Shown one piece after another: positions 54,233 through 64,000 of a DNA stretch of 64,000 nucleotides (its first letter is position 1; each line of letters opens with the position of its first letter). The notes beneath the pieces were generated by a model. That model was not told the DNA's origin and did no database searches. It worked only from the letters and a program-made list of their open reading frames with translations. The stretch is taken from NCBI RefSeq assembly GCF_009846525.1, contig NZ_CP024621.1:2976001-3040000 (forward strand). The letters are read 5' to 3'. A program made the position numbers and the translations under genes. Source of the DNA: Halomonas meridiana. GTDB lineage: Bacteria > Pseudomonadota > Gammaproteobacteria > Pseudomonadales > Halomonadaceae.

Positions 54233-54820
54233 CTAGCGGGGGGGCAGTACGTGATCGAACAAAATGGCCTCGAAGTGTTCCATAGGAGCCAGAGATTTAA
54301 GCGTTTTGGCCCGCAGAATCGCCCCCTCCCAACCGGAGAGAATAAAGCTGGCCAGCGCCTCAGGAGCAACGGCGGTATTGATCGTGCCGTCGGCTTGGGC
54401 TTGGCTCAAGCAGACCACAAAGCGTTTTTCCCAACGCTGAAACACCAAATTCAGGGCGTCACGGAAGGTATCACTCTGCCCGGATAACTCCTGGCCCAGA
54501 TTACCGATCAAGCAGCCGGTGGTGTGATCGCAGTCGAGCATATGGGCGCGCCCGGTGGCAAAGTAGCGGCGCAAACGCTCAAGGGGCGGCAGGGAGGAGT
54601 CTTCCAGCAGCGCCGCTAACGACGCATCGTAATCGTCGGCGAAGCGCTCAATGACCGCCAAGCCGAAATCTTCTTTGCTAGAAAAGTAGTGGTAGAACGA
54701 GCCTTTGGGGACACCGCAGGTTTTTAATACAGCATTGATACCCGTCGCGTTATAGCCCTGCTGGGCAATCAGCTCGGCACCAGAATCAATGAGTTTGTCG
54801 CGGGTGGCGGTGTTTTTCAT
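54233..54820 (-). CDS. TetR-family transcriptional regulator
   Basis: A 195-residue TetR protein: helix-turn-helix KNTATRDKLIDSGAELIAQQGYNATGINAVLKTCGVPKGSFYHYFSSKEDFGLAVIERF and a C-terminal ligand domain with TGCLIGNLGQELSGQSDTFRDALNLVFQRWEKRF, typical of the NemR/AcuR-like subgroup; a Cys in GCLIGN could act as a redox or electrophile sensor as in NemR. The start at 54820 is the natural beginning of the helix-turn-helix domain. It is divergent from the RND efflux operon with 215 bases between, and a 17-bp dyad lies in that gap, so repression of the efflux genes is probable. Confidence 0.9.
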   Translation of the reverse strand: MKNTATRDKLIDSGAELIAQQGYNATGINAVLKTCGVPKGSFYHYFSSKEDFGLAVIERFADDYDASLAALLEDSSLPPLERLRRYFATGRAHMLDCDHTTGCLIGNLGQELSGQSDTFRDALNLVFQRWEKRFVVCLSQAQADGTINTAVAPEALASFILSGWEGAILRAKTLKSLAPMEHFEAILFDHVLPPR

Positions 54821-54920: not shown

Positions 54921-54938
54921 GTTGCACACTTTTTGCAC
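54921..54938. promoter_or_regulatory. 17-bp dyad operator candidate ahead of the RND operon
   Basis: GTTGCACACTTTTTGCA (54921-54937) lies in the TetR/RND intergenic region, 98 bases before the RND operon start. It differs at one base from the site at 62553-62569 in front of the Spy-like gene. The dyad core is TTGCACA-CTT-TTTGCAC, nearly symmetrical. Its position and symmetry suit a TetR or response-regulator binding site. A small hairpin CCCG-TCACGT-CGGG (54908-54921) with a T run on the minus strand lies beside it. Confidence 0.65.
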
Positions 54939-55035
54939 AAAGCTTACCTAATCGCTGCGTGGCAATCGGTGATGCTAGCATGATACGCGCTCTTTTCTGG
55001 AATTTTCGCTCTCAGCCAACGGATAACGCCCGTCC

Positions 55036-56241
55036 ATGACCCCCTCTCGCTCTTACGCTTTTTCTCAGCAAGGTCGCATCGGCTTCGGTGCTCTGGCAGC
55101 GCTATTGGTGTTTGTCGGTGGTTTAGCTCTCGCTTGGTGGATCGTTAGCCAGCCACCCCGGGTCGAGCGCCGCCCGCCGCCACCGCCAACGCCGCCGGTG
55201 GTCGATATCATCACCACGGAACAGCAGGTGCAATCCCCCACGCTGAATGGCTTTGGCCGCGTTGAGGCAGAAAAATCCACCGAGCTTGCCAGCCGCGTAG
55301 CGGGCCAGCTAGAGCGCTTTGGCGATGGCGTGCTGCCTGGGCGAGTCGTGGAGCAAGGGGAGCCTGTGGCCCACATCGACCAAGCCGACCTGCGCTTAAC
55401 GTTAGAAGACGCCGAAGCCCAGTTGGCGAATGCCCAGGCGCAGCTCGCCTTAGAGCAGGCCGAGCAGCAGCGCGCGCGCAGCGAGTACGAATCCTTTGGC
55501 CGCCAGCTCAGCGCCGAACGCCGCGCGCTGGTACTGCGTGAACCGCAGCTCCGTCAGGCCCAAGCTCAACTGACCCAAGCCCGCGTGATGCGTGACCAAG
55601 CGGCGCTCAACCTAGAACGTGCGACCTTAACCGCCCCGTGGCGCGCCATGGTGCAAGAGCGTTTGGTGGGCGCTGGCAGCCTGCTGAGCCAAGGCACCGC
55701 CGTGGTGAGTTTGGTTGGCGTCGAGCAGTTCTGGGTGCGCGCCTCGCTGCCGGGCGAAACGCTGAATTGGCTGTCGCCGGGGGGGAGCGTCACGCTGACC
55801 AGCCAAGGCTGGCCAGAAGGTGCCTCACGGGAAGGCACGTTGCTCTCTATTCTGCCCAACCTCGAAGAGAACGGCCTTCAGGCCCAGCTGTTGATCGCCG
55901 TGGATGATCCGCTGGCGCTCAACCAGGACGGCCCCGCCCTGCGCTTGGGCGATGTGCTGCGCGTGGCGTTTCATACAACCGCCGAAGAGCCCTTGATTGC
56001 GCTGCCCTCAGCCGCACTTCGCCCCGGCGAGCAGGTGTGGTGGGTGGATGAGGATAATCGCCTGCAGAGCACCCAGGTCACGCTCGCCTATCGCGGCCAG
56101 GAAGAAGTGCTGATACGCAGTGGCCTGGAGCCCGGCCAGCGGGTAGTGACTGCCGGGCTGGCCCAACCCCGAGAGGGCCAGGAAGTGCGGATTCGCCAGC
56201 GTGGCGATACCCCTGCTCAGGATGAGGGAGCGGCGCAATGA
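55036..56241 (+). CDS. RND efflux periplasmic adaptor (membrane fusion protein)
   Basis: A 401-residue HlyD/AcrA-type adaptor. It has one N-terminal membrane anchor (GFGALAALLVFVGGLALAWWIV), a proline-rich linker, a lipoyl-like domain split by a coiled coil (DQADLRLTLEDAEAQLANAQAQLALEQAEQQRARSEYESFGRQLSAERRALVLREPQLRQAQAQLTQARVMRDQAALNLERATLTAPWRAMV), and a C-terminal beta-barrel and membrane-proximal domain ending LEPGQRVVTAGLAQPREGQEVRI. It bridges the inner-membrane pump to an outer-membrane channel, which is not encoded here. It overlaps the pump gene by four bases. Confidence 0.92.
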   Translation: MTPSRSYAFSQQGRIGFGALAALLVFVGGLALAWWIVSQPPRVERRPPPPPTPPVVDIITTEQQVQSPTLNGFGRVEAEKSTELASRVAGQLERFGDGVLPGRVVEQGEPVAHIDQADLRLTLEDAEAQLANAQAQLALEQAEQQRARSEYESFGRQLSAERRALVLREPQLRQAQAQLTQARVMRDQAALNLERATLTAPWRAMVQERLVGAGSLLSQGTAVVSLVGVEQFWVRASLPGETLNWLSPGGSVTLTSQGWPEGASREGTLLSILPNLEENGLQAQLLIAVDDPLALNQDGPALRLGDVLRVAFHTTAEEPLIALPSAALRPGEQVWWVDEDNRLQSTQVTLAYRGQEEVLIRSGLEPGQRVVTAGLAQPREGQEVRIRQRGDTPAQDEGAAQ

Positions 56242-59200
56242 TGCGTAAAGGCCCGTTGGCGTGGATGGTGGATCACGGCGTCGCCCCTAACCTGATGATG
56301 GCACTGTTTATCATCGGCGGGTTAATGGCATCGCTGGCGATTAAAAAAGAGGTCTTCCCTGAATTCGAGACCGAAATCGTTCAGGTCACCATCAGCTACC
56401 CGGGTGCCACGCCGGAGGATGTAGAGCAGAGCCTGCTGCTGCCGGTCGAGGCCGCGATTGCCGATGTGGAAGGCATCGATGAACTGACCGCCAGCGCCAG
56501 CGAAGGCAGTGGCGTGGTGAGCGCCACGCTGATTGATGGCGTGGACGTGATGCGTGCTTATCAGGATATTCAGCAATCCGTGAACGCCATCACCACCCTG
56601 CCCGCCGCCGCCGACCCGCCCCGCTTCACCCTGGCAGGCCGCTCGCGCAGCGTGGTCAGCCTTCAGGTATATGGCAACGTGGGCTTGGCCGCGCTTCACG
56701 ACGCCGCCGAGAACGTACGCGCCGAGCTGCAGGCCACCAGCGGCATTTCCCGCGCCGAGCTTTCCGGCAACCGCGAACGGGAAATCCAGGTTCATTTGGA
56801 TGACGAGGCCATTGAGCGCTACGGGTTGGATCATCAACAGCTGGCGGGCCGCATCGCCGAGGAAGCGCTGGACCTTGCCAGCGGCCAGCTCACAACCGAC
56901 GAGGGTGAGTGGCTGATTCGCTACCAGGGGCGGCGCAACAGCGCCGAGGAGTTTGCCGAACTGCCCATCTTGACCACCGCCCAGGGCGCGCCCGTTATGC
57001 TCGGCGATATTGCCAGAGTGAGCGAAGGCTTTGCCGAAACCGACCGGGAGGAATTTTATAACGGCCAACCGGGGCTATCGGTGGACGTGTATCAAATCGG
57101 CGACCAAACGCCCACTGGTATTTCCAATGCGGTTTACGGCGAGTTGGAGCGGCTGCGGGCCAACCTGCCCGATGGCGTCAGCCTGGACGTTTCACGGGAT
57201 AGCTCGGAAGTTTACGAAGACCGCCTCAGCCTGCTGCTGAAAAACGCCTGGATGGGGCTAGCGCTGGTACTGATTTTGATGGCGCTATTTTTAGAGGCGC
57301 GGCTGGCCTTTTGGGTCACGCTAGGCATTCCCACGGCGTTTTTAGGGGCCATGCTGTTTCTACCCTGGGTCGGCGTGTCGCTCAATATGATGTCGATGTT
57401 CGCCTTTATCATCGCCCTCGGCATCGTGGTGGATGACGCCATCATGGTGGGGGAGAACATCTACAGCTATCGAGAGCAGGGTTACTCGCTGCGAGATGCA
57501 GCGGTCAAAGGCGCTCAAGAAATTGCCACTCCGCTGACCTTTGCCATCCTCTCCAATATCGTCGCGTTTCTACCGCTCTTATTCCTGCCGGGCTTTTTGG
57601 GGCTGATTTTTGCCACCGTGCCGGTGGTGGTGATCACGGTGTTCGTGATTTCGCTGGTAGAAGCGCTGTTTATTCTGCCCGCCCACTTGGCCCACGCCAG
57701 CAAGCCCCGCCAAACGCCCGCGTGGCAGCGGCCTATCGAAGCGGTGCGACTCAGTATGCAGCGCGGTTTGCATCATTTTACCTATCAACAGTTTGAGCCT
57801 CTGTTACAGCGCGCGCTCAATCAGCGCCTGCTCACCGTCGCTATGGGCGTCGCCATTCTCTGCGTGACCATGGCCTGGGCGATGAGCGGGCGGTTAGGTT
57901 TTTCGCTGATGCCTCGGGTCGAGTCTGATCAGGTACAAGCCACCGTCACCCTGCCAATTGGCAGCCATATCAGCGTGAGCCGTGAGCTAAGCCAACAGCT
58001 CCTCGATGCCGCTGCGCAGCTCAGCGAGCAGGAAGAGACGCTCACCTTCAGCAGCACCCGCAGCAGCCTGGATGGCGAAAACCTGGAAGTACGTTTGGAT
58101 ATCGCGCCGGAAAGCCTCGATGCCTGGCCTCCTTCTCGCATCGCTCGGGAGTGGCGGGATCTCACCGGGGATCTGTTAGGCGCGCAGTCGGTACGTTTCG
58201 AGTCTGACGTGGGCGGCCCCGGCAGCGGCGCGGCCCTTAGCCTGCGCCTCTCCCACCCCAATACCCAAGTACTGGAAGCCGCCGCCGCCAGTTTGGCAGA
58301 ACGGCTGGGGGAGTATGGCTTAACCGATATCGACAGCGGCCTGGGCGATGGCAAGCCGCAGCTTGAGATGCGTCTCTCCGCCGAAGGGCGTTCACTCGGG
58401 CTGACCGGCAGCGACCTCGCCCAGGCGCTGCGGGGCCCGCTGCAAGGGGCCACGGCGGTGGAGCAGTTTATCGGTCGCCAGGAGGTGAGCGTGGAAGTGC
58501 GCCTGCCAGAGCAGTCGCGCAACAGCCTTAGCGAGCTGTACCGCCTGCCGGTCAGAACCCCCGACGGGATGAGCGTGCCGCTCTCTAGAGTCGCGGATAT
58601 CACTCTGAGCCAAGCCTCTAGCAGCCTGCAGCGTATCGATGGGCGGCGGATTATCACCGTCACCGCCGATTCAGAGGGCGACCAAGCGATTAACCAAGTG
58701 CTCGCCACCCTTCAAGAAGAGGTCTTCCCCACGCTCAGCAACACCTGGCCAGGGCTTGAAGTGAGCATGGGCGGCCGTCAACAGGATACCGCCGACAACC
58801 TCGCCACCCTGCGTAATGCCATGTGGCTGATGTTAGCGGCCCTCTATGCGCTGCTCGCCATTCCGTTCAGAAGCTACCTGCAGCCGCTGTTAGTGATGGC
58901 CGCGATTCCGTTTGGTATCGTCGGCGCCGTGGGCGGTCATATGCTGATGGGCTTTGGGCTGTCGATCATCAGCCTATTAGGTATGCTAGCGCTCTCCGGC
59001 GTGGTGATTAACGATGCGCTGGTGTTGATCGACTACGCTAACCGTAAGCGACGGGAAGGCATGGCGCCTCGCGAAGCGATTGTGGCCGCCGCCACCCGAC
59101 GCTTGCGGCCGATTATGATGACCACGCTGACCACGTTCCTGGGGCTTGCGCCGATGATTCTGGAAACCTCACGCCAGGCACGCTTTATGATCCCCATGGC

Positions 59201-59336
59201 GATTTCGCTAGGCTTTGGCATGCTCTTCGCTACCATGATTCTGCTGCTGGTGGTGCCCTGCCTCTATTTAGGGCTGGAAAACCTGCGTGAACGGTTAAGC
59301 GCCCCACGCCAGCCTAGCCAGCAGGGCATAAACTAA
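56238..59336 (+). CDS. RND family efflux pump, inner-membrane permease
   Basis: A 1032-residue RND permease with 12 predicted membrane helices and two large periplasmic loops. The proton-relay aspartates are in FIIALGIVVDDAIMVGENIYSYREQG (TM4). Typical stretches are VFPEFETEIVQVTISYPGATPEDVEQSLLLPVEAAIADVEGIDELTASASEG, LEARLAFWVTLGIPTAFLGAMLFLPWVGVSLNMMSMF and the C-terminal LALSGVVINDALVLIDYANRKRREGMAPREAIVAAATRRLRPIMMTTLTTFLGLAPMILETS. The substrate range is unknown. Its overlap with the adaptor (four bases) and with the kinase gene (one base) shows one operon. Expression is probably set by the downstream BaeS/BaeR-like pair and the divergent TetR protein. Confidence 0.95.
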   Translation: MMRKGPLAWMVDHGVAPNLMMALFIIGGLMASLAIKKEVFPEFETEIVQVTISYPGATPEDVEQSLLLPVEAAIADVEGIDELTASASEGSGVVSATLIDGVDVMRAYQDIQQSVNAITTLPAAADPPRFTLAGRSRSVVSLQVYGNVGLAALHDAAENVRAELQATSGISRAELSGNREREIQVHLDDEAIERYGLDHQQLAGRIAEEALDLASGQLTTDEGEWLIRYQGRRNSAEEFAELPILTTAQGAPVMLGDIARVSEGFAETDREEFYNGQPGLSVDVYQIGDQTPTGISNAVYGELERLRANLPDGVSLDVSRDSSEVYEDRLSLLLKNAWMGLALVLILMALFLEARLAFWVTLGIPTAFLGAMLFLPWVGVSLNMMSMFAFIIALGIVVDDAIMVGENIYSYREQGYSLRDAAVKGAQEIATPLTFAILSNIVAFLPLLFLPGFLGLIFATVPVVVITVFVISLVEALFILPAHLAHASKPRQTPAWQRPIEAVRLSMQRGLHHFTYQQFEPLLQRALNQRLLTVAMGVAILCVTMAWAMSGRLGFSLMPRVESDQVQATVTLPIGSHISVSRELSQQLLDAAAQLSEQEETLTFSSTRSSLDGENLEVRLDIAPESLDAWPPSRIAREWRDLTGDLLGAQSVRFESDVGGPGSGAALSLRLSHPNTQVLEAAAASLAERLGEYGLTDIDSGLGDGKPQLEMRLSAEGRSLGLTGSDLAQALRGPLQGATAVEQFIGRQEVSVEVRLPEQSRNSLSELYRLPVRTPDGMSVPLSRVADITLSQASSSLQRIDGRRIITVTADSEGDQAINQVLATLQEEVFPTLSNTWPGLEVSMGGRQQDTADNLATLRNAMWLMLAALYALLAIPFRSYLQPLLVMAAIPFGIVGAVGGHMLMGFGLSIISLLGMLALSGVVINDALVLIDYANRKRREGMAPREAIVAAATRRLRPIMMTTLTTFLGLAPMILETSRQARFMIPMAISLGFGMLFATMILLLVVPCLYLGLENLRERLSAPRQPSQQGIN

Positions 59337-60760
59337 TGAGTAGATGGACCCGACTGCGTCAGTGGCGGCCCTCGCGGCTGGGGCTAAAGCTGTTTGTAGC
59401 GATTCTCAGTGTCAATGTTGCGATTGCCGCCAGCGTGTTTCTGGCGGTCTCTTACAGCATCGACCGCGGCTTTCTTGAGTATCTCAATCAAGCCCAGGAG
59501 CGGCGGGCCACGCTGCTCGCCGATGGACTGATTACCCGCTGGGAAACCCAGGGCGACTGGGCGTGGTTAGAAACGTCGCCTGATCGTTGGCCCTATATTG
59601 TGCGCTTTGAGCTCGGCCAGGAGCATCGCGACCGCCCCTCTCCCCTTGGCGAAGCTGAGGATTTTGCTCTGCGCGATAGCGAAGGGGATTATGTCGTACC
59701 ACCTGCGGATGCACCCCGTGGCTCAATGGGCTGGCGCTGGCTGACGCTATACAGCGAAATGACCCAAAGCGGCCAGCGGGAAGCGATTGGTGCACTGGGT
59801 TTTCGCCCGCCGCAGGAGATGATGGAGCGCATGGAGAGCCGCTTTCTGGAGCGCCAGCAGCGTAACCTAGTGCTTATCGTGATCTCGCTAGGGCTGGCCT
59901 CGCTGCTGCTGGCAGGCGGACTCTCCTGGTGGCTGGGTCGACGCACCCGCGCCTTGGCCGGTGCTACGCTGCGCTTAACCGAAGGCGACTACCATACCCG
60001 CCTGCCAGAGCGTGGCAAAGACGAGCTTTCCCGCCTAGCCCGAGATTTCAACGTGCTGGCCGCCACGCTTGAAGCCAGCCGTGAAGCCCGTGCCCGCTGG
60101 GTCTCGGACACCGCCCATGAGCTGCGCACCCCGCTGGCCGTGCTGCGGGGTGAAATTGAAGCCATGCAGGACGGCATCCGCCCGCTGAACCAGGAAAACT
60201 TAAGTTCGCTGGCTCAGGAAGTGGCTCAGCTAGAGCGCTTAGTAGCCGATTTACGCCTGCTCTCCCAAAGCGATGCGGGCGCGCTGGATATCCAGCTTGC
60301 CCCCATGAACCTGAGCGAAAGTCTGGAAAGCCGCCTTAACGACGCCGACCGCTGGCTGGAAGAGAGCGGCCTGACCCTCACCACGGCCCTGGCCGATGAT
60401 GTGATGATTCGCGGCGATGCCCAACGGCTGCGCCAACTGTGGAGCAACCTGCTGGATAATAGCTGTGCCTACACCCAGCCGCCTGGAAAGCTGAGTGTTT
60501 CCCTTATCTGCGAACGGGGCGACGCGGTGATTATCTGGCAAGATAGTGCCCCCGGCGTTCCTGAAGAGGAGCTGTCACGTTTAACCGAGCGGCTCTACCG
60601 CGTGGAGGGTTCCCGCAACCGCGCCAGCGGCGGAAGCGGCCTAGGGCTTTCCATTGCCAGCGCGCTGGTAACGGCCCATGGTGGTACCCTCACCCCCAGC
60701 GCTTCGCCCCTTGGCGGCTTGACCTGGACCCTGCGGTTTCCGCTGTTAACCGTCTCTTAA
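59336..60760 (+). CDS. baeS: BaeS-like sensor histidine kinase
   Basis: A 474-residue membrane kinase. A first helix is at about 17-40, a periplasmic sensor of about 130 residues follows, then a second helix at about 178-202 (LVLIVISLGLASLLLAGGLSWWLG). HAMP, HisKA with RWVSDTAHELRTPLAVLRGEIEAMQDGIRPLNQENLSSLAQEVAQLERLVADLRLLSQSDAG and an HATPase with LWSNLLDNSCAYTQPPGK, WQDSAPGVPEEELSRLTERLYR and GGSGLGLSIASALV follow. The segment ending LRLLSQSDAG matches E. coli BaeS well. BaeS senses envelope stress from indole, tannin and similar. It overlaps the RND gene by one base, so it is part of the efflux operon. Confidence 0.9.
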   Translation: MSRWTRLRQWRPSRLGLKLFVAILSVNVAIAASVFLAVSYSIDRGFLEYLNQAQERRATLLADGLITRWETQGDWAWLETSPDRWPYIVRFELGQEHRDRPSPLGEAEDFALRDSEGDYVVPPADAPRGSMGWRWLTLYSEMTQSGQREAIGALGFRPPQEMMERMESRFLERQQRNLVLIVISLGLASLLLAGGLSWWLGRRTRALAGATLRLTEGDYHTRLPERGKDELSRLARDFNVLAATLEASREARARWVSDTAHELRTPLAVLRGEIEAMQDGIRPLNQENLSSLAQEVAQLERLVADLRLLSQSDAGALDIQLAPMNLSESLESRLNDADRWLEESGLTLTTALADDVMIRGDAQRLRQLWSNLLDNSCAYTQPPGKLSVSLICERGDAVIIWQDSAPGVPEEELSRLTERLYRVEGSRNRASGGSGLGLSIASALVTAHGGTLTPSASPLGGLTWTLRFPLLTVS

Positions 60761-60782
60761 CCCGACCCTAAGCGAGCTTGCG

Positions 60783-61529
60783 ATGACCCAGCGTGCTGAA
60801 CACCCCGAGGCTCCCGCCCAAGACGGTCTCTCTCAGGAGACGTCCCTACTGATCGTGGAGGACGAGCCTAAAATTGCCCGCCTCATGGCGGACTACCTGC
60901 AAAGCAATAACTTCGCTCCGACCATTATCAGCCATGGCAGTGACGTCATGCCCTGGCTGACCCAACACTCGACGTCGCTGGTGCTGTTGGACGTGATGCT
61001 GCCGGGCAAAGATGGCCTGACGCTCTGCCGAGAAATTCGCCAACAGTGGCCGACCCTGCCGATCATCATGGTCACCGCCAAAGTGGAAGAGGTGGATCGT
61101 CTCCTCGGGCTCGAACTGGGTGCCGATGATTACATCTGCAAACCCTTTAGCCCGCGCGAAGTGGTGGCACGTGTCAAAGCCGTGCTGCGCAGAAGCCATG
61201 CCGCCGCCCAGGGCGATGCCCCAACCACCGCCAAGCATGCCCCGGTGACGCTGGACGAAGAGGGCTGGCAGGCGCTCGCCAATGGCCATGACCTAGGGCT
61301 GACCGCCGTGGAGTTTCAACTGCTGCGCGTGATGATGCAGTCGCCTGGCCGGATCTTCAGCCGCGAGCAGCTGATGGATCATATGTACCGCGACAACCGC
61401 ATCGTGTCCGAACGCACGGTCGACAGCCACATCAAGAAGCTGCGTAAAAAGATCACCGAAGCCCTGCCCGACCAGGAGATCATCCGCTCGGTGTATGGGG
61501 TCGGCTATAAGTATCAGCCCGAGGGGTAA
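60783..61529 (+). CDS. baeR: BaeR-like OmpR-family response regulator
   Basis: A 248-residue regulator. The receiver domain has VEDEPKIARLMADYLQSNNFAPTIISHGSDV and acceptor Asp70 in LVLLDVMLPGKDGLTLCREIR, with Lys in YICKPFSPREVVARVKAVLRRS. The winged helix has LDEEGWQALANGHDLGLTAVEFQLLRVMMQSPGRIFSREQLMDHMYRDNRIVSERTVDSHIKKLRKKI, which matches BaeR. It lies 22 bases after its kinase. In enterobacteria BaeR activates mdtABC and spy; here an RND operon and a Spy-like gene share an upstream site, so the parallel is close. It is convergent with the next gene, five bases apart. Confidence 0.9.
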   Translation: MTQRAEHPEAPAQDGLSQETSLLIVEDEPKIARLMADYLQSNNFAPTIISHGSDVMPWLTQHSTSLVLLDVMLPGKDGLTLCREIRQQWPTLPIIMVTAKVEEVDRLLGLELGADDYICKPFSPREVVARVKAVLRRSHAAAQGDAPTTAKHAPVTLDEEGWQALANGHDLGLTAVEFQLLRVMMQSPGRIFSREQLMDHMYRDNRIVSERTVDSHIKKLRKKITEALPDQEIIRSVYGVGYKYQPEG

Positions 61530-61534
61530 GCCAC

Positions 61535-62452
61535 TTACTCAGGCGCGACATGGCGGTTCAAGAACGCAATCCCCGCCTCGATGGCGCTTCCGCGCAGCAG
61601 GAAGCTCGTGACATGGCCACGCCCGCGCTGCAGGTAGAGTTCGCTAGGCGTCCCCTGGGCCTTCAACGCTGCGTAGAAGTCAGTGGCGTGATCGACCGGC
61701 ACGAGCTGGTCCCAGCTGCCGTGAAACAGGAAAAACGGCGGTGCCTTAGCGGTGATTTGCCGGGTCGGAGAGGCCAGCGCGTAGGCCTCCGGCCGCTCGG
61801 CACGTGTGCCGCCGATAAAGTCGATCACGAGACGTCCATCGTCGAATTTCAACAGATCACTGGGTAACCCGCCCGCCAGCACTGCTGCCAAACGCGCATG
61901 CTCCCCGCCATAAGGCGCTGCCAACGGGCCTTCACTGCCAGCCAGGGCAAGCAAGCTGACCAAATGCGCGCCGGAGGAGAAGCCGACACCGACGATGCGG
62001 TCGGTATCGATCTGCCAGTCAGTGGCGTTGTCGTGTATCCAGGCCATCGCCTGCTGGAGATCGTGTAGCTGCGCGGGGAAACGATAGTCAGGGGCAAAGC
62101 GGTGTTCGATATTCACCGTGACGTATCCCTGGGCCGCCAACTGCGCCGCGATGCCTTCCATATCCTCCGGCCCTCGATTACGCCACCCCCCACCGTGTAC
62201 CACGAGCGCCGCAGGACGACGTGCGTCGCCTGACGTCTCGGGGAGCAGCACCTGGGCACGTAAGGTTTCGGGCCACGTCTCAGGCGTGTAGGGCTGAGGA
62301 GCCAGGCGGCTAAACGGCTGGGGGGCGCGCAGCGTGCCCTGCTCGATGGCAGGCTCCCCTTGGCTGACTTGATGCGTGGCACCGCAGCCGCTTAACCACA
62401 CGGCTAGCGCGCTGACACTCACGATTCGGCGTAGACCACGAATATCTGGCAT
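61535..62452 (-). CDS. Alpha/beta hydrolase lipoprotein (esterase-like)
   Basis: A 305-residue secreted hydrolase. The N-terminus MPDIRGLRRIVSVSALAVWLSGCGATHQ has a lipobox LSGC, so it is probably lipid-anchored. The fold of the hormone-sensitive-lipase/BD-FAE-like group is seen: AALVVHGGGWRNRGPEDMEGIAAQLAAQGYVTVNIEHR (oxyanion GGGW), VGVGFSSGAHLVSLLALAG with the nucleophile in GFSSGA, and FFLFHGSWDQLVPVDHATDFYAALK with Asp, then a late GRGHVTSF His. ATG at 62452 follows AAGGAG. The substrate is unknown. It is separated from the Spy-like gene by 186 bases and is divergent from it. Confidence 0.87.
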   Translation of the reverse strand: MPDIRGLRRIVSVSALAVWLSGCGATHQVSQGEPAIEQGTLRAPQPFSRLAPQPYTPETWPETLRAQVLLPETSGDARRPAALVVHGGGWRNRGPEDMEGIAAQLAAQGYVTVNIEHRFAPDYRFPAQLHDLQQAMAWIHDNATDWQIDTDRIVGVGFSSGAHLVSLLALAGSEGPLAAPYGGEHARLAAVLAGGLPSDLLKFDDGRLVIDFIGGTRAERPEAYALASPTRQITAKAPPFFLFHGSWDQLVPVDHATDFYAALKAQGTPSELYLQRGRGHVTSFLLRGSAIEAGIAFLNRHVAPE

Positions 62453-62553
62453 GCGTCTCTCCTTCTGACCAACGGTAGTGGCGTTTCCCCTCACCGCTCA
62501 ACCGCCCCGTGCTCTATCTTGTCGTTTCGTCTCGTCTGAGAAGGTCACGGTTG

Positions 62554-62570
62554 TTGCACACTTTGTGCAA
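62554..62570. promoter_or_regulatory. Perfect 17-bp dyad ahead of the Spy-like gene
   Basis: TTGCACACTTTGTGCAA has perfect 7-bp arms around CTT. The 17-base word starting one base earlier is 16 of 17 identical with the site before the RND operon (54921-54937). It is 69 bases before the Spy-like gene start and 102 bases upstream of the divergent esterase gene, so it could control either. Confidence 0.7.
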
Positions 62571-62638
62571 ACGTTTTACACCAAGCCCATGAATACTGAC
62601 ATCGTCAAATTACCATGTATTCACCGATGAGGTATGCC

Positions 62639-63061
62639 ATGAAGATGTCACTTCGCCAACTGTTCGCGCCCGCTCTGCTGGCCGTCGCCCTGACACCGTT
62701 AGCCTTCACCGCACAAGCGGATCACCACGATGGCCAAGGCATGGATCGTGAGGCCATGAAAGAGCGCATGGAAGAGCGCCGCCAGGAAGTTTACCAGCGC
62801 GCTGAACTGAGCGAGGAGCAGCAAGCAGCCCTCAATGAGGCCCACGCCGAGCATCGTGAGGCCGTCCTGGCACTGCGTGAAGAGCATCAAGCCCGTGTCG
62901 CCGAGATCCTCTCCGACGAAGAGCAGCAGGCGCTGCGTGATGCCATGCACGACATGCACGCTGAGTACCGCCAGGAGCGTGGTCATAGTGGCCACGGCAA
63001 ACGCGGTCACCATGACGATTCCACCCACGACATGGACACCGAAGAGGCTGCTGCCGAGTAA
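62639..63061 (+). CDS. Spy/CpxP-like periplasmic protein
   Basis: A 140-residue secreted protein. A signal peptide (MKMSLRQLFAPALLAVALTPLAFTAQA) is followed by a helical, charged region with two LTxxQ-like motifs (LSEEQQAALNEAHAEHREAVLALREEHQARVAEILSDEEQQAL), characteristic of Spy and CpxP. The C-terminal tail is rich in His, Gly and Asp (HSGHGKRGHHDD), a possible metal-binding tail. I chose ATG at 62639, with GATGAGGT upstream; two in-frame ATGs lie earlier. Spy is an ATP-independent chaperone induced by envelope stress through Bae and Cpx in enterobacteria. The shared dyad with the RND operon supports such a role. Confidence 0.82.
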   Translation: MKMSLRQLFAPALLAVALTPLAFTAQADHHDGQGMDREAMKERMEERRQEVYQRAELSEEQQAALNEAHAEHREAVLALREEHQARVAEILSDEEQQALRDAMHDMHAEYRQERGHSGHGKRGHHDDSTHDMDTEEAAAE

Positions 63062-63224: not shown

Positions 63225-63242
63225 TTTGAACGTTCATTCAAA
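63225..63242. promoter_or_regulatory. BetI-like operator
   Basis: TTTGAACGTTCATTCAAA, containing the perfect palindrome TGAACGTTCA and flanking TTTGAA/TTCAAA arms, lies 47 bases before the betT start. It is close in form to the BetI (TetR family) operators around GGACGTTCAA known in E. coli bet genes. A choline-responsive repressor is therefore likely to control betT. Confidence 0.65.
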
Positions 63243-63288: not shown

Positions 63289-64000
63289 ATGGCGAAAGAC
63301 AACCCCGTCCTCCCCTCACGAGACCGCTTGAACCCCGTGGTTTTCCACGGCAGCGTCGCCGGTATTCTCGTGTTCTTGATCATGACGATGCTGTTCACCG
63401 AGCAAGCAGGCGCTTTCTTCGATGCAGGCCTTGCCTGGGTGAGCAAAACGTTTGGCTGGTACTACATGCTGGCGATTGTGGCGTATCTGGTGTTCGTGGT
63501 GATCATCGGCATGTCCCGTTACGGCAGCATCCGCCTTGGCCCCGACCACTCACGGCCTGAGTTCTCGCTACTCTCCTGGTCGGCCATGCTGTTTGCCGCA
63601 GGCATTGGCATTGACCTTTTGTTTTTCAGCGTTGCCGAGCCGGTTGCCCACTATTTGGCACCGCCGGATCTAACTCCTGAAAGCCAAGAGGCCATGCGCA
63701 ACGCCGTGGTACAAACCTACCTGCACTGGGGGCTCTCCGGTTGGGGTCTGTACGTGCTGATGGGCATGGCCCTGGCCTACTTCAGCTACCGTCACCGTTT
63801 GCCGCTGGCGATTCGCAGCGCGCTCTATCCGCTGCTGGGCAAGCGCATTCACGGCCCGATTGGCAACGCCGTCGATATCACTGCCGTCATTTCGACCGTG
63901 TTCGGTATTGCCACCAGCTTGGGCATTGGCGTGATTCAGCTCAACTACGGCCTAAACTACATGTTCGACGTGCCGGAAACGCTGACGGTGCAGGTCATTT
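63289..64000 (+). CDS. betT: BCCT-family choline transporter BetT, N-terminal part
   Basis: The first 237 codons of a BCCT transporter; the gene runs off the right edge. The N-terminus MAKDNPVLPSRDRLNPVVFHGSVAGILVFLIMTMLFTEQA, then GIDLLFFSVAEPVAHYLAPPDLTPESQEAMRNAVVQTYLHWGLSGWGLYVLMGMALAYFSYRH, and RIHGPIGNAVDITAVISTVFGIATSLGIGV match BetT-type choline/H+ symporters. AGGAG is 12 bases before the ATG. BetT supplies choline for glycine betaine synthesis under osmotic stress, which suits a halophile. Betaine transport is the alternative; the truncated sequence lacks the long C-terminus that helps separate them. Confidence 0.9.
   Translation, partial: MAKDNPVLPSRDRLNPVVFHGSVAGILVFLIMTMLFTEQAGAFFDAGLAWVSKTFGWYYMLAIVAYLVFVVIIGMSRYGSIRLGPDHSRPEFSLLSWSAMLFAAGIGIDLLFFSVAEPVAHYLAPPDLTPESQEAMRNAVVQTYLHWGLSGWGLYVLMGMALAYFSYRHRLPLAIRSALYPLLGKRIHGPIGNAVDITAVISTVFGIATSLGIGVIQLNYGLNYMFDVPETLTVQVI

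Follow-up and report, generated by a model that had tools for sequence, protein, structure and literature searches.

A 17-bp motif occurs in two places in a 64,000-nucleotide stretch of Halomonas meridiana DNA (the window): in front of an RND efflux operon and in front of a gene for a Spy-like protein. The question raised by this locus was which regulator reads the motif, and in what form. Each copy was found within a longer array of direct repeats. Judged from comparative sequence evidence, the motif is very probably part of a four-half-site operator through which the BaeR-like regulator of the pump operon would activate both promoters.

Gene Content of the Locus

The genes around the two promoters are listed below.

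54233..54820, minus strand: TetR-family regulator (TetR_N, TetR_C_13; best NCBIfam model AcuR, 199 against a cut-off of 247)
55036..56241, plus strand: RND periplasmic adaptor (HlyD/RND_mfp)
56238..59336, plus strand: RND permease, a single ACR_tran gene
59336..60760, plus strand: BaeS-like sensor kinase
60783..61529, plus strand: BaeR-like response regulator of the OmpR/PhoB family, the putative reader of both arrays
61535-62452, minus strand: alpha/beta hydrolase, convergent, between the regulator and the Spy-like gene
62639..63061, plus strand: Spy/CpxP-like small exported helical protein (alternative start 62615)

The response regulator contains the receiver and winged-helix domains of the OmpR/PhoB family (PF00072 and PF00486, both above cut-off), and its closest solved protein was BaeR (4b09, E 2.1e-80). 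The best NCBIfam family of the regulator was the BaeR equivalog NF007982 (313.7; cut-off 380), and that of the kinase was NF012163 (382.7; cut-off 500), with NF007837 giving 340 (cut-off 603). Because both proteins scored best with BaeS/BaeR models and stayed under the cut-offs, the pair is termed BaeSR-like. The operon has one permease gene rather than the two different permease genes of an MdtABC system, and the permease scored 282.9 against 1584 for the MdtB/MuxB model.

The Spy-like protein of the window had no Pfam or NCBIfam hit. The label holds through a chain of homology, since its homologues match LTXXQ, CpxP or Spy models. Two of the 10 homologues tested passed PF07813 (LTXXQ; L353 at 27.5 and L339 at 24.6, cut-off 24.3), both occupying the same genomic place in Methylobacter. 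In an aligned set of 23 proteins, made up of the window's protein and 22 of the 26 homologues found, hits at E <=0.01 were obtained to a CpxP model for 6 proteins and to the Spy model for 5. The predicted structure consisted of three helices with a mean pLDDT of 75.9, which rose to 92-98 in blocks of residues 41-110. In several genera (L295, L314, L322 and others), the protein is about 220-250 aa long and seemingly internally duplicated in the alignment. No hydrolase was found in relatives such as L062, in which the Spy-like gene lies closely behind the regulator. A near-palindrome, TTTGAACGTTCATTCAAA, is located at 63225-63242, upstream of a gene at 63289 that we take to encode a BCCT/choline transporter; the near-palindrome is similar to BetI-type operators.

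Anatomy of the Two Promoters

The two 17-mers lie where the first-pass annotation had placed them, GTTGCACACTTTTTGCA at 54921-54937 and GTTGCACACTTTGTGCA at 62553-62569, and are identical at 16 of 17 positions. The spacings given for them were also correct: the adaptor ATG (55036) follows the first after 98 bases, and the likely start of the Spy-like gene (62639) follows the second after 69. This start was preferred over 62615 because its ribosome-binding site read better. The second 17-mer extends, as described, to a perfect dyad, TTGCACACTTTGTGCAA, at 62554-62570; neither the window nor the 3.86-Mb genome holds another mismatch-free match to TTGCACANNNTGTGCAA. The view that the same dyad precedes both genes could not be maintained: the 17-mers are real, yet the dyad is not conserved and the two positions are not equivalent. 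When the promoters are aligned on the -10 hexamer, the first 17-mer lies over half-sites 1 and 2 but the second over half-sites 2 and 3, an offset of one unit. An overlooked feature of the first site is that its two TTGCACA copies, with CTTT between them, form a perfect direct repeat of 11 bp.

Each 17-mer sits in an array of four 7-bp half-sites with the core YTGCA, arranged head-to-tail with an 11-bp period. The half-sites are separated by 4-bp gaps and all face the same direction, and the array stops 9 bp before a -10-like hexamer. With this hexamer included, the arrays span 54922-54976 on the pump operon side and 62543-62597 on the Spy-like gene side.

54922..54928, plus strand: pump promoter half-site 1, TTGCACA (T, T, C and A columns 100% in 74 genus promoters)
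54933..54939, plus strand: pump promoter half-site 2, TTGCACA
54944..54950, plus strand: pump promoter half-site 3, weak, TTACCTA (many relatives TTRCCTA or TTGACTA)
54955..54961, plus strand: pump promoter half-site 4, CTGCGTG (CTGC columns 86-100% conserved)
54971..54976, plus strand: pump promoter predicted -10 hexamer, GATGCT, 9 bp past half-site 4
54972..54981, strandless: ATGCTAGCAT, a palindrome overlapping the pump -10 and a candidate operator for the divergent TetR
62543..62549, plus strand: Spy promoter half-site 1, weak, GGTCACG (TCA columns 89-99% conserved)
62554..62560, plus strand: Spy promoter half-site 2, TTGCACA
62565..62571, plus strand: Spy promoter half-site 3, GTGCAAA
62576..62582, plus strand: Spy promoter half-site 4, TTACACC
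62592..62597, plus strand: Spy promoter predicted -10 hexamer, AATACT, 9 bp past half-site 4

In both promoters, 11-bp direct repeats abut the -10 hexamer, itself predicted, as in a pho-box-like tandem operator. A scoring model was built from the pooled genus half-sites and the -10 hexamer, with the pump and Spy promoters weighted equally and Spy half-site 1 excluded. The arrays of the window, which belonged to the training set of this model, scored 37.1 and 25.5, whereas 40 Markov-resampled 64-kb windows gave a highest score of 20.5 and a mean maximum of 13.2; both values served as cut-offs.

The motif search that the first-pass annotation had proposed stayed within chance for the dyad. With up to 3 mismatches, the window held 4 matches against 3.24 expected, and the whole genome held 165 forward matches against 143 in the reversed control. 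The three-half-site pattern matched the genome with 0 mismatches only at the pump and Spy promoters, as it must by construction, and with up to 2 mismatches it gave 16 forward matches against 17 in the reversed control. Since only two matches were perfect and the looser ones equalled the control, the regulon looks local. The earlier proposal of a local envelope-stress regulon, in which the RND-sensor-regulator operon and the Spy-like gene would share BaeSR-like control, thus gained support by inference. Two near matches, C1:235738 and C1:2923429, were dropped, the best full-model scores nearby being 8.8 and 7.4.

Conservation within the Genus and the Divergent TetR

Vreelandella, split off from Halomonas, is probably the genus concerned. 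The genus set (Vreelandella/Halomonas) consisted of 300-bp upstream regions, 74 from adaptor genes and 82 from Spy-like genes. A regulator match at E <=1e-40 was present in 82/82 genomes, that of G052 being only at 9e-43 and probably a paralogue, and the Spy-like protein was present in 81/82. The pattern T-N-C-A was phased three times at 11 bp in 81/82 Spy promoters, and T/C was phased four times at 11 bp in 73/74 pump promoters, with T-N-N-C as the third unit. The alignments of both promoters show four phased units, then 9 bp, then a -10-like hexamer (GATGCT/GATRCT for the pump, RATACT for Spy).

TetR-family proteins bind dyads, and the Spy-side sequence is a perfect one. A dyad operator common to both promoters and read by the divergent TetR repressor would accommodate these two points. 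The exact dyad, however, was found in 23/82 Spy promoters and 0/74 pump promoters of the genus, and the array was present in 7/7 genus pump loci that had no TetR hit in the fetched stretch. In other genera of the family, a TetR hit occurred in 1/40 loci, whereas the array occurred in 32/40. The symmetry at the 17-mer was thus neither conserved nor tied to TetR. It is another palindrome, ATGCTAGCAT, that tracks TetR, being found in 64/67 genus pump loci with TetR and in 2/7 without, a difference that lineage may confound. TetR probably acts there, over the -10 of the pump promoter. On the exact-dyad counts, the TetR-less loci and the comparison of spacings, the reading of the 17-mers as a TetR dyad was dropped; it is considered extremely improbable. 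On the tandem-array reading, the perfect symmetry at 62554-62570 would simply follow from the TGCA core being self-complementary.

Localization of the Array outside the Training Genus

The array model was evaluated on 40 loci that represent 19 further genera of the family, with approximately 10 kb per locus and both strands scanned. A site was expected within 300 bp upstream of the first detected gene of the operon or in the 300 bp that follow the regulator gene. The best hit fell inside these intervals in 36/40 loci (1.2 expected), whereas periods of 8-10 and 12-14 bp gave 1-13; these and the following locus counts are not independent, because the loci are related. Some of the 36 best hits were weak (L269 5.1, L274 5.4, L231 9.8). 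At a score of at least 13.2, the array was found in 32/40 loci and 15/19 genera, with 2 hits elsewhere across all loci, and 8/40 loci had no site of this score in either expected interval. At a score of at least 20.5, the counts were 20/40 loci and 10/19 genera, with 0 hits elsewhere. Other periods reached 0-1 loci at these cut-offs.

In other families of the class, 10/20 loci localized and 10/20 failed (other periods 0-2), and several of the successes were weak. Named halomonad loci localized in 39/47 cases (other periods 0-9), and farther named relatives localized in 9/33 (0.85 expected; other periods 0-3) and failed in 24/33, several successes again being weak; the family membership of the named loci was taken from record titles, and the named set overlaps the other locus sets. 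In two distant relatives, the array model scored 21.4 (L250) and 25.1 (L256) outside the expected intervals; these array-like hits are possible further targets.

Simpler arrangements were also scored on the 40 family loci. A plain two-unit direct repeat localized 29/40 at 11 bp and 26/40 at 22 bp, and the dyad spacing of the first-pass annotation localized 20/40. The opposite inverted arrangement at 12 bp localized 26/40; such scores are expected of inverted spacings, as TGCA is its own reverse complement. These values bear on whether the regulator needs only two strong half-sites, the weak outer ones being promoter sequence or chance. Such a short operator would agree with the -35-like appearance of pump half-site 3 (TTACCTA, TTGACTA) and with Spy half-site 1, which keeps only TCA. 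It agrees less well with the 26/40 loci localized by the direct distance of 22 bp and with loci of other genera in which four half-sites are readable, such as L233 (TTGCGCA, TTGCGTA, CTGCGCG and TTGCGCA) and L278 (CTGCACC, TTGCACC, CTGCACC and TTGCACG). A two-half-site operator is therefore regarded as unlikely.

Linkage of the Array to the Regulator Genes

In some of the genomes that have lost the pump, the array stays with the sensor-regulator genes. A site of at least 13.2 was found before the sensor gene in 17/30 family loci lacking a detected pump; where a pump was present, 6/10 loci had such a site in front of it. After the regulator gene, such a site was found in 15/30 pump-less and 8/10 pump-bearing loci. 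Seven genomes of the training genus lack the pump. In three of them, the array was kept before the sensor gene (scores 30.9-37.4), and in the other four the operon array was absent or weak (<=10.4) though the regulator was kept. In all seven, the array in front of the Spy-like gene is preserved (22.3-30.5), mostly in promoters of the training set. At one locus, L130 (G081), the pump has been lost except for a short permease end, the operon promoter adjoins the sensor gene, and TetR lies about 2.5 kb away.

The converse loss was found in G139, which keeps the pump (permease 65% identical) and has no regulator match; the best score at its pump promoter was 5.9, compared with 24.9 at that of G099 from the same genus. 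G139 is a single case, and L269 and L277 of its genus keep the regulator and have neither a pump nor a good array. In G052, the second genome without the regulator pair, the contig stops 94 bp upstream of the adaptor gene. Taken as natural gene losses, these patterns are suggestive of a site that goes with the regulator rather than with the pump or TetR.

OmpR/PhoB-family regulators bind direct repeats as a class, and another member of the family might read the arrays in place of the operon's own regulator. The genome contains 5 family matches at E <=1e-40, the next best being 38% identical, and the 8/40 family loci that have the regulator and no good array would be in keeping with such a reader. 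Against it, the arrays surround this particular sensor-regulator pair in 15/19 other genera, pump or no pump, and G139, the sole complete genome with the pump but without the pair, has no array. A different reader is hence considered highly unlikely.

Comparison with Known Systems

The pho box, which is bound by PhoB, consists of head-to-tail 7-bp half-sites with an 11-bp period that abut the -10. The arrays of the window share the half-site length, the orientation, the period and the abutment on the -10 with it. They differ in half-site sequence and in the spacing to the -10, which is one base shorter here than in pho boxes.

The BaeSR system of E. coli and Salmonella (mdtABCD-baeSR, spy and acrD) likewise has a kinase and a regulator in an RND operon, a separate Spy-type gene and CTNCA-type boxes. 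It differs in having mdtB plus mdtC where one permease gene occurs here, and in its CTCCA cores, compared with TTGCA cores and four clear half-sites here; the Spy-like gene lies next door in the window. In the available text on these species, the BaeR boxes are given as TTTTTCTCCATDATTGGC and TCTNCANAA, two differing consensuses with a common CTNCA element (PMC3799227). The earlier statement that the Halomonas site is unlike the E. coli BaeR box found no clear support, since half-sites of the form YTNCA resemble this element and E. coli spy, mdtA and acrD have the same spacing. YTNCA occurs in 4/8 half-sites of the window, and the pooled genus half-site reads T(C)-T-G-C-A, compared with the E. 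coli-type core CTNCA (TCTNCANAA).

The string CTCCA-N22-TACA[CG]T was found once each upstream of E. coli spy, mdtA and acrD, with CTCCA starting 27 bp before the hexamer. It occurred nowhere else in 74 kb (both strands of three E. coli stretches summed), and other gaps of 10-39 gave none. The spacing had been derived from spy and mdtA; the acrD string was spotted by eye in test output and then counted. With two, three and four half-sites, the TACACT hexamer of spy ranked 8, 6 and 3 of 19870, and that of mdtA ranked 185, 5 and 60 of 33870. For mdtA, the alignment of the published 18-mer may use a different CTCC, 10 bp farther downstream. E. coli acrD was not ranked by the Halomonas-trained model, though CTCCA-N22-TACAGT is present. 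The ycaC gene, reported as a BaeR site in the available text of PMC2731931 and tried as a fourth spacing test, had no such spacing. ChIP-exo peaks are described at spy and mdtA and not at acrD in the available portion of PMC7657598. The lack of an acrD peak, together with L269 and L277 lacking a good array, slightly lowered our confidence in the operator and in its extension to other bacteria.

In Acinetobacter baumannii, the BaeR box footprinted at cas3 is TNTTGCNGN, whose TTGC core is common to the arrays here; the available text gives single short boxes (-241 to -233 and -101 to -93) and describes no tandem array (PMC12625773). The E. coli and A. baumannii boxes suggest, without proving, a code shared with the arrays of the window. 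We tentatively consider, at slightly less than an even chance, that the array represents a general BaeR-type promoter code in Gammaproteobacteria (four one-turn half-sites, 9 bp and a -10), of which the E. coli consensuses would be partial views. AdeR belongs to the same regulator family as the BaeR-like protein. It controls an RND pump from a tandem (direct) repeat (quoted in PMC10052836), which is alike in layout and differs in its 10-bp length and unrelated sequence. In the open-licence PMC literature, no related report on BaeSR with Halomonas was found, as judged from the listing, nor any report of a TTGCACA direct repeat with a response regulator; the available portions of PMC4107485 and PMC4498774 give no BaeR box.

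Proposed Mechanism and Implications

The sequences themselves establish the layout of the arrays, their period and spacing, their conservation and their link to the regulator genes; the course of events at the two promoters is inferred from the regulator family. On an inducing signal, the regulator would be phosphorylated and would bind the four one-turn half-sites, which run in one direction and end 9 bp ahead of the predicted -10. By analogy with PhoB on the pho box, one phosphorylated dimer would occupy two head-to-tail half-sites, so that two head-to-tail dimers would line one face of the DNA at each array. Because the array ends 9 bp before the -10, the last half-site would stand in for a -35 element. 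The bound regulator may then contact or recruit RNA polymerase at the -10 and activate transcription from starts behind it. In this manner, the regulator would switch on its own operon (adaptor, permease, sensor and regulator), a positive autoregulation, and would co-activate the separate gene for the Spy-like chaperone.

A motif that looked like a dyad thus becomes a precise operator model for an envelope-stress regulator, and its spacing rule is offered for finding BaeR targets in non-model bacteria. If the code is general, it would predict targets in any genome and would explain why the two E. coli consensuses differ.
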